64,000 nt of DNA, from assembly GCA_001899205.1 (NCBI GenBank), contig MKVL01000005.1, forward strand, positions 59,335-123,334, read 5' to 3'. This document shows positions 19,749 through 24,656 of this stretch, in pieces (positions within the stretch are counted from its first letter, which is position 1; each line of letters begins with the position of its first letter). The notes under the pieces are model-generated. The model had not been told where the DNA came from. It saw only the letters and a program-made list of their open reading frames with translations, and made no database searches. Source of the stretch: Mesorhizobium sp. 65-26. Its GTDB lineage: Bacteria > Pseudomonadota > Alphaproteobacteria > Rhizobiales > Rhizobiaceae. A program made the translations under genes and the position numbers.

Positions 19749-21074
19749 ATGAGCAGCGGATTTTTCGGCGACATCCAGAAGATCAAGTACGAAGGGCCGG
19801 ATTCGACCAATCCGCTGGCCTACCGGTTCTACAACCCGGACGAGGTCGTGGCCGGCAAGCGGCTCGAGGACCACCTGCGCTTCGCCGTCGCCTACTGGCA
19901 CTCCTTCGCCTGGCCGGGCGGCGACCCGTTCGGCGGCCAGACCTTCGACCGACCCTGGTTCCCCAAGGCGGGCGGCATCGACACGATGGAGTTGGCCAAG
20001 CTCAAGGCCGATGTTGCCTTCGAGATGTTTTCGCTGCTGGGCGCGCCATATTTCTGCTTCCACGACGCCGATGTCCGTCCGGAGGGCAAGGATTTCTCCG
20101 AAAGCGCCGCGCGCCTCGACGAGATCGCCGACTATTTTGCCGACAAGATGAAAAAGACCGGCGTGAAACTGCTGTGGGGCACGGCCAACCTCTTCTCGCA
20201 CCGTCGCTTCATGGCGGGCGCCGCCACCAATCCCGATCCGGACGTGTTCGCCTACGCCGCCGCAACAGTGAAGAGCTGTATCGACGTGACGAAGCGGCTG
20301 AAGGGCGAGAATTATGTGCTGTGGGGCGGACGCGAGGGCTATGAGACGCTGCTCAACACCGACCTTGCGCGCGAGCAGGAGCAGGCAGGCCGCTTCCTCA
20401 ACCTCGTCGTCGACTACAAGCACAAGATCGGCTTCAAGGGCACGATCCTGATCGAGCCGAAGCCGCAGGAACCGACCAAGCACCAGTATGACTACGACGT
20501 CGCCACGGTGTACGGCTTCCTCAAGCGCTTCGGGCTGGAGAAGGAAGTGAAGGTCAACATCGAGCAAGGCCATGCGATCCTCGCCGGCCATTCCTTCGAG
20601 CATGAGTTGGCCTTGGCGAACGCGCTGGGCATCTTCGGTTCTATCGACATGAACCGCAACGACTACCAGTCGGGCTGGGACACCGACCAGTTCCCCAACA
20701 ACGTGCCGGAAATGGCCTTGGCCTATTACCAAGTGCTGCAAGGCGGCGGCTTCAAGACCGGCGGTACCAATTTCGACGCCAAGCTCAGGCGCCAGTCGCT
20801 CGACCCGGAAGATCTCCTGATCGGTCATATCGGCGGCATGGACGCCTGCGCGCGCGGCCTCAAGGCGGCGGCAAAAATGATCGAGGACAAGGCGCTGTCC
20901 GGACCGCTCGCCGAACGCTACGCCGGCTGGACCACGGCCGAAGGCAAGGCGATGCTGTCGGGCAAGCGCACGCTGGAGGACATTGCCGAGCGCGTCGTGA
21001 AGAAGAAGATCGAGCCGCAGCCACGCTCGGGCCGACAGGAACTGCTGGAGAATATCGTCAACCGCTACGTCTGA
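19749..21074 (+). CDS. xylA: Xylose isomerase
   Basis: A 441-residue class II xylose isomerase converting D-xylose to D-xylulose. Recognisable blocks include [23 protein letters not shown] (active-site His/Phe/Trp), [21 protein letters not shown], metal-binding [17 protein letters not shown] and [30 protein letters not shown] ribosome site precedes the ATG. xylB lies 0.7 kb upstream on the same strand. No XylR or ABC xylose transporter genes are in the window. A short ATTAC-N7-GTAAT dyad at 19702-19718 lies in its promoter region. Confidence 0.97.
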
Positions 21075-21172
21075 GGACGATCTCCTTCTGGACAGAAACC
21101 CGCCGCGCGTGGCCGAAGCCACGCCGGCAGTGCTCTGCTATCTCTCCCGCCTCGCGGACGGGAGAGATGGGA

Positions 21173-21664
21173 ATGGCAGAACGCCACATAGAGCTGCGCG
21201 CCGCGCAGGCGAGCGACGTCGCGGCCTTGAAACAGGTGCTTCGCGACACGTTCGAGGGCACCTGGCTGCCGCATATCACTCCGGCTTCGGCACGGCGCTA
21301 TGCGGAGCAGGATATCGGCAACCGCTACGTCGACCGGAGCTGGCAGGGTTTCGTCGTGGCCGAGGTCGATGGCGAGGTTGCCGGGCTGCTGCACAGGCGC
21401 GGCGATTTCATCGAGGCACTGCACGTGCGGGCAAGCCACCAGGGCTGGGGCATCGGGCGGCGGCTGCTTTCGCACGCAGAACAGGCAATGGCGGCTGAAG
21501 GTTTCGCCCAGGCCAGGCTGGAAACCGATACGTTCAACGTGCCCGCCCAGACGCTCTACAAGGCTGTCGGCTATGTCGAGAAGGACCGCTATCCCGATGA
21601 CGAATGGGACAGCGGCTTCACCACGATTCTGTTCGAAAAGAAGTTCGGTGGGCCTATGTCCTGA
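21173..21664 (+). CDS. GNAT family N-acetyltransferase
   Basis: A 163-residue GNAT protein. The acetyl-CoA motif is RASHQGWGIGRRLLSHAEQ (Q/R-x2-G-x-G/A), followed by ARLETDTFNVPAQTLYKAVGYVEK, typical of RimI-like enzymes. The substrate is not predictable. ATG 21173 is preferred over 21167, because a GGGAGAG site lies at proper distance from the second ATG only. It follows xylA by about 100 bases on the same strand. Confidence 0.85.
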   Translation: MAERHIELRAAQASDVAALKQVLRDTFEGTWLPHITPASARRYAEQDIGNRYVDRSWQGFVVAEVDGEVAGLLHRRGDFIEALHVRASHQGWGIGRRLLSHAEQAMAAEGFAQARLETDTFNVPAQTLYKAVGYVEKDRYPDDEWDSGFTTILFEKKFGGPMS

Positions 21665-21826
21665 GCGCTCGCCACACCCGAAAAAGCATCCTCGCGCGCG
21701 CCCTCGGACGAGACAAGTTTTTGCCCCTACCGGCCCCTCAATGGCCTCGCTCCTGCCTTCAAACAGCCGTCACGTATCTCGTATAGTGTGCGGCGTGGCG
21801 AGAAAGGAAGAAGGAGGCGAACCGAT

Positions 21827-22036
21827 ATGCAGCAAGAGCGCGAAATCGACGCCCTGCTCTCGCCTGGCGAGACCGGATCGATCATCGACCGGCTGATGGC
21901 GCTGCCATATTCGAAGGATGGCGCGCGGCAGATGAACGAATGGGATCGTGCGGTGGCCAGCCGTTTCGAAGCGCATCTCGCCCGGCAGATGCGCTCCCAG
22001 ATCGACGGCGCCGGCGAGCAGCAGACCGCGGCCTAA
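21827..22036 (+). CDS. Conserved small hypothetical protein
   Basis: A 69-residue, charged, helical protein (MQQEREIDALLSPGETGSIIDRL...). It has an excellent AAGGAGG ribosome site at 21811-21817. No motif I recognise and no signal or membrane segment. Its stop is four bases before the displaced 3' end of the GlxA-type regulator gene at 22040, which marks the left border of the nuclease islet, so this gene is ancestral chromosome rather than part of the islet. Confidence 0.65.
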   Translation: MQQEREIDALLSPGETGSIIDRLMALPYSKDGARQMNEWDRAVASRFEAHLARQMRSQIDGAGEQQTAA

Positions 22037-22039
22037 GCA

Positions 22040-22119
22040 TTATCCCCGGCGAAGCCTGACCGGGGCTTCGCCGAAAGCTCTCGAAAACGCTCTGGAAAAA
22101 GCCGCAGCGGACGAGAATC
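22040..22119 (-). pseudogene. Displaced 3' end of GlxA-type regulator gene (left repeat of islet)
   Basis: On the minus strand this stretch reads in frame as the last 25 or so residues of the AraC/GlxA regulator, ending FGEAPVRLRRG and a TAA stop at 22042-22040. Bases 22047-22119 match 23683-23755 at 68 of 73 positions, and the internal differences are silent in the protein. This is the end the regulator gene probably had before the 1.6-kb islet was inserted. It now lacks a start. Confidence 0.75.
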
Positions 22120-22152
22120 TGCGAGTATCGATCAAGAGGCGTGTTGGACCAC

Positions 22153-23574
22153 CTAAATCGAGCTGCCAAGCAACTTCTCAAGATTAGCTGCACCCTCTAA
22201 GAAGAATGAATTTAGGGCTTCACGAACAGAAGCCGGAGTCTCGTGGATGTACGAGTGCACTCCTAGCTCCAGGAAGAAGAAGCCTGGTCCACTATAAACT
22301 GCCCTGTCATCTTCTCCCGGCACAAATACCTCGCCCCGTTTCAACATGATGTGCCGATCAACCATCTGCGGGAATGCCGAAAGCGCTCGCTTCACAGCCG
22401 AAAAATCGTCTGATTTGAATACGATAAGTGCGGAGAACATCACGTCAGGATTTATCCCGAAGTCCTTTATCGGCTTCGACAAATCGTCAGACGACGCCAA
22501 ATCCGACAGATAATCTATCGCGCTGTTCTGCGATCTGATTACTTTCATCGACGGCATTTTAGAGAAAACTGAAATAAGCTTTTCGAACGCTCCATCTCTT
22601 CCGGCAGAAACGACTTTTCCGTCCCTCTTGATCACATGTTTGCGCTCCCAACCCCATTCTCGTGTCCACTCGTCACCTGACTTAACTCGCCGATCGCCGA
22701 CAAGAAAGCTCCCCATGTAAGGCACGTAGTAGTCATAGTGATCCTTGTCGTAATGATCACTCGCTGTTAAATACATTACCTTCCTTACGTCAAATCCATA
22801 TATCTGCCCATCATCAAGAGCCCACCCATCGCCCAAAGATTTTTCAATATCTTTCGATGAGTATTCAGTTTCTTCTCTATTCGGAAACATATAATCTATA
22901 TAATATATATATTCATTTGATTTGTCGTTGTACCATATTGCTCGAATTCGCAAAAAATGATTATCTTTCAGTTTTATGGATTCCATTTCTTCAATTCGTC
23001 GCTCGATCGAACCGAAATGCATCCTGGCGGAAGAACCAATCCTATTCGATAAGCCAAAATGGTATCCCTTATAGTTGGCGACAAATCTGTTCGGCTCTGT
23101 CGTATTGCTTATGTTCCAGGAACTCTCAGCGGCTGACACAGGCATAAAGCGCTGAGCTATCGCCCAATTCTGTGGCGTCGACAGTAACCTTTCGACGTGA
23201 GTCGCATCCCAATAACCGGTCCGAAGTTCCGGTGTGCTCAATGCTTCCAGGCGGCCGATGAGGGCGGAAGAAACAGACGTGGAAGATATCAGGCAATATC
23301 CCGATGCCGAATGCTGCTTGCAGCTATCCAGTATGCTATCAATATCGTTGACACCCACGGCTCGGCCGGAGTTTGCAAAGTGCTTGCACTGGATCAACCA
23401 CTTCGTGGTAACTTTTCCGAAAATCGACCCAGAATCCTCATGGCATATGAGATCGCGACCACCGTCTGGCCCCACTCCAGACCATGTGACGTGATACCCG
23501 AGAGTGAACAAAATCTCTCTAATCAATAATTCAAACAGGATTCCGTCTTTCGGAAGCTCCTGAAAATTCAGCAC
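22153..23574 (-). CDS. Mrr-like restriction-endonuclease-fold protein in a low-GC islet
   Basis: A 473-residue protein with an N-terminal Mrr_cat-type nuclease domain. FELLIREILFTLGYHV is followed by GPDGGRDLI (D41) and KWLIQCKH (Q62, K64), the PD-(D/E)xK core. Residues 150-473 contain several Tyr/Asp-rich segments and no domain I can name; they may sense a ligand or invader. The GTG at 23574 has an AGGAG site nine bases upstream; an in-frame TTG at 23634 lacks one. GC is near 45 percent against over 60 for neighbours, so the gene is acquired. Its isolation between 73-bp repeats suggests a single-gene defence (anti-phage or anti-plasmid) cargo. Defence function is inference. Confidence 0.7.
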   Translation of the reverse strand: MLNFQELPKDGILFELLIREILFTLGYHVTWSGVGPDGGRDLICHEDSGSIFGKVTTKWLIQCKHFANSGRAVGVNDIDSILDSCKQHSASGYCLISSTSVSSALIGRLEALSTPELRTGYWDATHVERLLSTPQNWAIAQRFMPVSAAESSWNISNTTEPNRFVANYKGYHFGLSNRIGSSARMHFGSIERRIEEMESIKLKDNHFLRIRAIWYNDKSNEYIYYIDYMFPNREETEYSSKDIEKSLGDGWALDDGQIYGFDVRKVMYLTASDHYDKDHYDYYVPYMGSFLVGDRRVKSGDEWTREWGWERKHVIKRDGKVVSAGRDGAFEKLISVFSKMPSMKVIRSQNSAIDYLSDLASSDDLSKPIKDFGINPDVMFSALIVFKSDDFSAVKRALSAFPQMVDRHIMLKRGEVFVPGEDDRAVYSGPGFFFLELGVHSYIHETPASVREALNSFFLEGAANLEKLLGSSI

Positions 23575-23675
23575 TGTTATTTCTCCTATCCAAAACGAGA
23601 CTCGGAATTTTACTTGCGATGGGCAAATCGGCAACTACGTCTTAGCAAATCAATCGCTGAGACACTCAGGGGAGA

Positions 23676-24656
23676 CTAACTTCGGCGAAGCCTGACCGGC
23701 GCTTCGCCGAAAGCTCTCGAAAACGCTCTTGAGAACGCCGCTGCGGACGAGAATCCGGTTCGCCCGGCAATGTCGGCCATCGCCACCTTGGTGTCGACGA
23801 CGAGCCGCCGCGCCGCGCTGAGGCGGAGCCTGAGATAATAGGCGCCGGGCGTCTCGCCGATCGATTTGCGAAAAATGCTCTCCAGCGTCCGCGCCGTCAC
23901 CCCGGCGCGCTTGGCCACCGCGTCGATGGTGAGCGGCTGGTCGACATGCGCCTCCATCAGCCGAATCGCCTGCGCCAGGCGCGGGTCGTAGCCATCGAGC
24001 CGGCCGAGCGAGACCAGCGGCTGGGCGTCGGTGGCCGAGCGCGCCTGGTCGTAGATGAACACGCTCGCCACATCGAGCGCGATCGCCATGCCGAGCCGGG
24101 TGCGCACGAGATGCAGCATCAGGTCGAAGGTCGGCGAGGCGCCGCCCGTGGTGAAGACGGGACCATCGATGACATAACGGTCCGGCCGCACGTCGACGCC
24201 CGGAAAGGCGGCGGAAAAGTCCTCCATGTCCTCCCAGTGGGTGGTGGCGCTGCGACCTTCCAGAAGGCCGGCGCGCGCCACCAGCCAGGTGCCGGCCTCG
24301 ACGCCGCCGCAGGCGCGCGCCGCACGCGCCGCCCTGCGCAGGCCGGCCAGCAGCGCCGAGGTCGTATAATTCTGCGTGCCGAAGCCGGCGACGACGACCA
24401 GCATGTCGGTCGGCTCGGCGGCGTCGAAGCGGCCGCTGACCGCCACCGGCAGGCCGCAGGTGGTGACCGGCGCCTCCCCCGTCACCGAGACCAGCTTGAA
24501 GTCGAACAGCGTCTCGCCGCAGATGCGATTGGCCGCGCGCAACGGGTCGACGGCGGAGGCCACGCACATGATGGACGACCCCGAGAACACCAGGAACGTC
24601 ACCCTGAGCCTTTCACGCTCGGCGCGAAAGATACTGGGCTTTTCGCTTTTGATCAT
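23676..24656 (-). CDS. GlxA/CdhR-type AraC-family regulator
   Basis: A 326-residue regulator. The N-terminal DJ-1/PfpI-like domain (about 15-195) includes the GFGTQNY segment. The C-terminal AraC DNA-binding domain (about 215-320) has two helix-turn-helix units (IDAVAKRAGVTARTLESIF and MADIAGRTGFSSAAAFSRAF). It is divergent from the BKACE gene with 79 bases between. In pseudomonads CdhR of this type activates carnitine catabolism, so it is the likely carnitine-responsive activator of the 24.7-31.4 kb operon. The start is at ATG 24656. Its last 25 or so codons come from a second allele delivered with the adjacent nuclease islet. Confidence 0.82.
   Translation of the reverse strand: MIKSEKPSIFRAERERLRVTFLVFSGSSIMCVASAVDPLRAANRICGETLFDFKLVSVTGEAPVTTCGLPVAVSGRFDAAEPTDMLVVVAGFGTQNYTTSALLAGLRRAARAARACGGVEAGTWLVARAGLLEGRSATTHWEDMEDFSAAFPGVDVRPDRYVIDGPVFTTGGASPTFDLMLHLVRTRLGMAIALDVASVFIYDQARSATDAQPLVSLGRLDGYDPRLAQAIRLMEAHVDQPLTIDAVAKRAGVTARTLESIFRKSIGETPGAYYLRLRLSAARRLVVDTKVAMADIAGRTGFSSAAAFSRAFSRAFGEAPVRLRRS
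23683..23755 (-). repeat. Right 73-bp direct repeat of the nuclease islet (inside regulator 3' end)
   Basis: Matches 22047-22119 at 68 of 73 bases in the same orientation. It encodes the present C-terminus of the GlxA-type regulator (FGEAPVRLRRS, stop TAG). The pair brackets 22120-23682, which contains only the nuclease gene. This is the arrangement left when an element integrates in a gene 3' end and supplies a replacement end. Confidence 0.8.

Follow-up and report, generated by a model that had tools for sequence, protein, structure and literature searches.

How did a restriction-type nuclease gene come to lie between two copies of the same regulator gene end, with the regulator itself unbroken? 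The question is raised by a small islet in the genome of Mesorhizobium sp. 65-26, within the window, which is the whole stretch of 64,000 nucleotides that was analyzed. The features of the locus are collected in Table 1.

Table 1. Features of the islet and its borders, in window positions
Feature	Position	Strand	Description
82-aa ORF	21788..22036	+	No Pfam family; borders glxA in relatives; odd ancestry in own genome
Left repeat (LC)	22047..22119	-	73-bp glxA tail remnant; encodes ...FSSAAAFSRAFSRAFGEAPVRLRR, then G and its own TAA
Islet between repeats	22120..23682		1,563 bp, 46.7% GC
GTCCAAC	22143..22149	-	Three bases past the nuclease stop; similar to an attC R'' box but lacking an exact R' partner; perhaps chance
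Nuclease gene	22153..23574	-	473 aa, GTG start, GGAG upstream; N-terminal Mrr-type PD-(D/E)XK domain, then HFX_CASS1-like central domain
glxA-type regulator	23676..24656	-	DJ-1/PfpI and AraC-type HTH; odd ancestry in at least the last 200 bp
Right repeat (RC)	23683..23755	-	Present glxA 3' end, then S and TAG

A foreign islet beside a duplicated glxA end

The first-pass annotation had described a low-GC islet with a single Mrr-like gene between 73-bp repeats, and this description is borne out. The only gene of the islet is that of the nuclease (Mrr_cat, 37.8 bits), and the GC content of the islet is 46.7% versus 64.6% for the window. Among stretches of islet size, the one beginning at 22101 is lowest in GC (47.0%), and the next lowest away from the islet has 56.6%. 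By open reading frames and Pfam, the islet is without integrase, relaxase, and transfer genes, and the window contains no tRNA genes. A search for the islet DNA in a set with one genome per species, with up to two candidates scored per genome, found it in 1 of 144 genomes, its own, and in 0 of the 143 others. The islet is a real foreign single-gene insertion, unique among the sampled species, beside a duplicated regulator end. An assembly artefact might be suspected in a draft genome of 42 contigs, but this is extremely improbable given the shortness of the repeat, the position of the locus inside a 351-kb contig, and a complete islet gene with homologues elsewhere.

The flanking regulator is of the GlxA type by its Pfam domains, HTH_18 and DJ-1_PfpI. 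The inner edge of RC lies at 23755, the end given in the first-pass annotation, and glxA itself reaches about 24656. LC and RC form a direct repeat of 73 bp with 68 of 73 positions identical (93%). All five differences are silent and fall on third codon positions of the minus-strand glxA frame (P = 0.0028 under random placement), so both copies look as if they had evolved as coding DNA and fit two alleles that diverged while coding. Both encode the peptide FSSAAAFSRAFSRAFGEAPVRLRR, followed in frame by TAA in the left copy and TAG in the right copy, which agrees with the earlier description of two glxA C termini with silent internal differences only, the left one keeping its own stop codon. 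The single residue by which the tails differ, G (left) versus S (right), stands directly before the stop codon and just outside the repeat. A perfect 9-bp inverted repeat (CGGCGAAGC / GCTTCGCCG) starts each repeat copy, inside the coding end of glxA (22047-22073 and 23683-23709).

These silent differences bear on how the repeat arose. Insertion with long target duplication has been proposed by the Kobayashi group for restriction-modification genes (PMC3031569); here, a single insertion of the nuclease would have doubled 73 bp of target. The islet resembles such insertions in that a single restriction-type gene lies between long direct repeats. That mechanism predicts copies that start identical, the released one then drifting freely, whereas five of five changes are silent and in third position, and both LC and RC differ from the genus majority. 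By this indirect test the two copies do not appear to stem from one target copy; they are distinct coding alleles, and the islet, unlike those insertions, has no methyltransferase. Around homologues of the nuclease, no repeats of at least 28 bp were found in four loci (L038, L039, L041, and L061), and a fifth (L037) has three short families. A long target duplication is improbable on this evidence.

The two tails are not equally ordinary for the genus. The LC C terminus (...RLRRG, then stop) is genus-typical, with an exact match in 52 of 65 related loci, and the RC C terminus (...RLRRS, then stop) occurs in 0 of 65. The last GlxA residue is G in 58 of these loci, A in 5, R in 2, and S in none, the loci (one per genome) being those fetched and not a random draw from the 145 relatives. 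Across 67 loci, a count that includes two genomes twice, LC is the closer allele in 41, RC in 11, and 15 are tied; in an earlier set of 47 loci the numbers were 29, 8, and 10. As a pointer to the native copy, these similarity counts are suggestive only.

The same site in relatives

A search for the repeat in 146 genomes of the genus, with no more than about six candidates scored in each, returned two matches in the own genome, one in each of 132 others, and none in 13. Had the left fragment belonged to a gene duplication unrelated to the islet, as the first-pass annotation allowed, a second match might have appeared among the 132 other matching genomes, and with about six candidates scored in each, none did. 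The region of the 82-aa ORF is present in 142 of the 146 genomes. The distance from this ORF to the glxA end was taken in the 131 relatives in which a single contig carries both anchors (from 132 repeat rows and 133 ORF rows, G157 being dropped because it had no ORF row). It is 150 bp or less in 87 of them, and these are empty sites with the uninterrupted regulator end that the first-pass annotation had proposed to look for in strains lacking the islet. In the remaining relatives it is 150 to 1,200 bp in 41 (159 bp in one, 793 to 1,081 bp in the others) and 1,453 to 1,563 bp in 3.

All 43 intervals of 793 to 1,563 bp were read. Each encodes a protein that matches the HAD-type hydrolase (by Pfam) of one of their number (L044), with a cupin gene beside it in 3 of the 43 (L043, L044, and L045). 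These are ordinary genes; each interval has one glxA tail, and a second tail or a nuclease was found in none of the 43. An interval from a genome without a repeat match (G011) gave the same outcome. The wider interval between the xylA-like gene and glxA (window 21074-23676) is variable across the genus, with a GNAT gene present or absent and HAD, HAD plus cupin, or neither, and it is evidently prone to exchange. In some relatives (e.g., L017, L028, L032, and L048) a short motif like TTTGGGCGACATGCAT recurs just downstream of glxA; it is absent here and looks like a dispersed intergenic repeat.

Small elements without an integrase are already known from the 3' ends of protein genes, so the islet is not new in this respect. 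CIMEs (cis-mobilizable elements) are described in PMC7563491 in composite islands of Streptococcus salivarius at the 3' ends of fda, rpsI, and rpmG, with rplL also named among the protein genes so used and sizes starting from 1.2 kb; PMC5704250 describes CIMEs as well. By analogy, an element could have entered the last 73 bp of glxA site specifically, its attP restoring the end of the gene, and a later deletion would have spared only the nuclease gene, leaving the repeats as attL and attR. The islet is like a CIME in being small, in carrying cargo only, with no integrase, relaxase, or transfer genes, and in having repeats that include the 3' end of a protein gene by its stop codon, with the gene intact and the old end retained. 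The 73-bp direct repeat can be taken as a candidate att only. This sequence of events would account for the twin tails in one step, and an integrase acting in trans could come from among the 14 Phage_integrase matches found elsewhere in the own genome. Elements would then be expected at the site in some relatives, but an ICE, an IME, or any integrase element between the 82-aa ORF and glxA was seen in 0 of 131. A similar att sequence was found in no plasmid or phage at an E value of 0.01, and its exact core is absent from the viral contigs. GlxA is not among the ICE and IME sites of Mesorhizobium named in the available part of a survey of them (PMC8627217). Also unlike a CIME, foreign ancestry seems to lie outside the repeats too (see below) and to continue into glxA. 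We regard descent from such an element as the main rival to the origin proposed below, possible but short of probable. An 11-kb contig of the own genome has a row of three reading frames of the tyrosine recombinase type (G000:C2:6272-8710).

Ancestry of the pieces

To follow ancestry along the locus, we asked whether the similarity of each genome to all others in one stretch follows its similarity in the 5' part of glxA, using the own genome and 61 relatives drawn from the 65 fetched loci; the stretches are short (73 to 300 bp) and the sliding windows overlap. In relatives this is usually the case: over all rows, including the two own rows, the mean correlation was 0.31 in the tail, 0.61 in the 300 bp that follow, and 0.29 in the 82-aa ORF. 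The own genome departs from this pattern. Its LC tail had a correlation of -0.39 and its 82-aa ORF one of -0.27, values that 0 of 61 relatives reached, and its RC tail had one of -0.29, with 2 of 61 as low. These two (L008 and L058) indicate that the signal is not unique to the own genome. The next 300 bp of glxA (23756-24055) gave 0.17, and again 2 of 61 relatives were as low.

In the sliding test, the stretches 23683-23808, 23733-23858, and 23783-23908 were each matched by 1 of 61 relatives. The stretch 23833-23958 was ordinary (31 of 61 as low), those over 23883-24158 were low to middling again (9, 6, 8, and 5 of 61), and from 24083-24208 on values were ordinary (24 and 23 as low). The odd stretch thus extends to about 23900 at the least and possibly to 24150, and its right breakpoint is blurred. 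Because the odd signal runs across 23683-23908, the tract is longer than the repeat. In a comparison that includes two genomes twice, identity in the xylA-like gene correlated at 0.62 with glxA 24357-24656 and, on 10 loci, at 0.74 and 0.79 with the right flank. Thus the left-hand xylA-like gene, the glxA 5' part, and the right-hand genes vary together and go with the backbone. By a moderate signal, a tract made up of the 82-aa ORF, both tails, and some 200 bp or more at the 3' end of glxA seems to depart from this backbone and to have been exchanged; the odd ancestry of the tract is supported by one statistical test.

The first-pass annotation had an imported end replacing the native one, with the old end left behind. 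This reading is supported in part: LC is the ordinary end of the genus (52 of 65) and RC is not (0 of 65), but LC is not simply the old end of the backbone, since its ancestry is as odd as that of RC (-0.39 versus -0.29). The likeness drawn to integrative elements at tRNA 3' ends fares less well. Ancestry that is odd beyond the repeat, to about 23900 and perhaps 24150, fits homologous flanks better, a route that the first-pass annotation had named as an alternative and that also suits the odd ancestry of the 82-aa ORF. Integration of the tRNA-like kind is possible and less likely than exchange through homologous flanks.

Proposed origin of the islet

We give about an even chance to the following origin: a foreign restriction-type nuclease insertion that arrived inside a homologous-recombination tract, its twin tails being the product of a two-joint addition. 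The tract would extend from the left of the 82-aa ORF, across the islet, and into glxA, where it would take in about 200 bp (perhaps 470 bp) at the 3' end. Within it, a segment made up of a glxA 3' end and the nuclease would have been added beside a glxA with its own end, one joint forming via homology in glxA and the other, nonhomologous, 73 bp before the stop codon of the other copy. The outcome would be an intact glxA whose last codon is new, beside a noncoding remnant of the old tail. The data show the twin tails, the empty sites, and the foreign cargo; we infer the two-joint mechanism and its place in the order of events, and the event may predate the transfer and have occurred in a donor lineage.

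Exchange through homologous flanks would explain why there is no integrase, why the tract exceeds the repeat in length, and why the interval varies in gene content. Speaking against the recombination tract is that LC has a genus-typical C terminus, as a native end would. The donor arrangement, glxA followed by the nuclease, was found in no relative (none of the 143 other genomes, one per species, gave a match to the islet DNA), and a literature search on homology-facilitated recombination found nothing relevant.

The nuclease joins an Mrr-type domain to an HFX_CASS1-like domain

The nuclease matches Pfam Mrr_cat (PF04471) with an E value of 2.3e-9 and 37.8 bits, above the cut-off of 21. Mrr-type endonucleases have the catalytic motif D...QxK, and the expected positions are occupied in the window protein by conserved acidic residues and a lysine. 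D38, D42, C64, and K65 are invariant across the seven aligned sequences; residue 63 is Q in the window protein and S in a homologue (L061). AspBHI and MspJI were among the Foldseek matches of the structure model (E values of 8e-5 to 3.5e-4), and these matches probably fall on the nuclease domain. The protein is like the Mrr-type and MspJI/AspBHI modification-dependent enzymes (PDB 4f0p and 4oc8) in its PD-(D/E)XK-type domain and in the lack of a methyltransferase in the islet, and it differs from them in its partner domain.

That partner is a central domain (about residues 208 to 292; profile positions 210 to 290 of 463) that resembles the integron cassette protein HFX_CASS1 (PDB 3fuy), with a profile E value of 3.9e-6, a Foldseek E value of 2.9e-5, and a TM-score by target length of 0.57 to 0.60. 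As the structure model is good in parts only (mean pLDDT of 69.9, pTM of 0.39), the sequence profile is the main support for the fold matches. Our literature search on HFX_CASS1 returned no paper on it. Pentatricopeptide-repeat matches in a single-sequence PDB search (best E value of 0.0056) were weak and were taken as chance. The islet protein falls in no NCBIfam family, and its PADLOC match is weak (PDC-S02, E value of 3.4e-5). The nuclease likely has a restriction-type role in defense and would cut incoming, perhaps modified, DNA.

Homologues and the integron link

A scan with six peptide patterns, which yields a sample of the family, named six homologues: four from Bacteroidota (L037, L038, L039, and L041), one from a Porticoccus MAG (L040), and one from Paenibacillus (L042). 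Close homologues occur in 3 of 145 other genomes of the genus, all partial. The order sample gave 1 of 396 others at an E value of 1e-10, with the N-terminal part only, and the phylum sample gave 2 of 397 at 1e-15, both partial. Partial homologues were also found in four plasmid records and one phage record, and none were found in the viral contigs.

Some family members sit in what look like integron cassettes. An exact R'/R'' pair of at least 8 bases bounds the gene in 3 of 9 other members, from Algibacter, Porticoccus, and a Bacteroidetes MAG (L039:1762-3368, L040:2764-3735, and L041:6756-10734). The control, 125 mechanical ORFs of at least 250 aa that were taken from five loci and the window and include some family genes, gave 3 of 125, or 2 of 124 once the neighboring cassette of L041 is set aside. 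Downstream of the L040 gene is an attC-like hairpin with R' paired to R'' (z = -2.2). The best fold downstream of the L041 gene leaves R' and R'' unpaired, its z of -2.6 coming from another hairpin. L041 adjoins a divergent tyrosine recombinase that is like integron integrases and XerA and falls under both curated cut-offs; its nuclease copy is split over two frames.

The islet is like these cassettes, and like HFX_CASS1, in encoding a homologous protein with the shared central domain. An integron integrase could have put such a cassette into a secondary site in the glxA end, and GTCCAAC three bases after the nuclease stop recalls the R'' box of attC, whose consensus is RYYYAAC. The islet, unlike the cassettes, has no exact R'/R'' pair and no attC-like fold (z = +1.07 and +1.40 on the two strands), its genome has no integron integrase above cut-off, and cassette insertion produces no 73-bp duplication. 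As an account of the present boundaries this is largely refuted and very improbable, though the gene may have an older origin in a cassette.

PADLOC scans of neighboring genes covered two homologues. Near L038 they found a type IV-like enzyme, a cytosine methylase, and a type II-like restriction enzyme, and near L061 a PDC-S06 protein and a CBASS phospholipase and cyclase. The L061 region (L061:1-13000, genome G093) has a shorter homologue clustered with genes for PDC-S06, an HSP90-like ATPase, a Tle1-like phospholipase-domain protein, and the CBASS phospholipase and cyclase.

A wider proposal would take the Mrr-type nuclease with its HFX_CASS1-type domain as an undescribed stand-alone defense family that travels largely as integron cassettes, of which one copy escaped here and spreads between chromosomes without a recombinase via homologous glxA ends. 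We put this forward as doubtful in its entirety.

What the locus offers is a clear small case in which a defense-type gene was added at the end of a core gene that stayed unbroken, with no recombinase in the islet. The islet is of a kind already known; the nuclease family and its integron link are the more interesting part. Here the domain of a solved cassette structure, HFX_CASS1, is joined to a restriction-type nuclease, which gives a lead to its function. Spread without a recombinase would be the broader claim, and it is one that can be tested in related strains.
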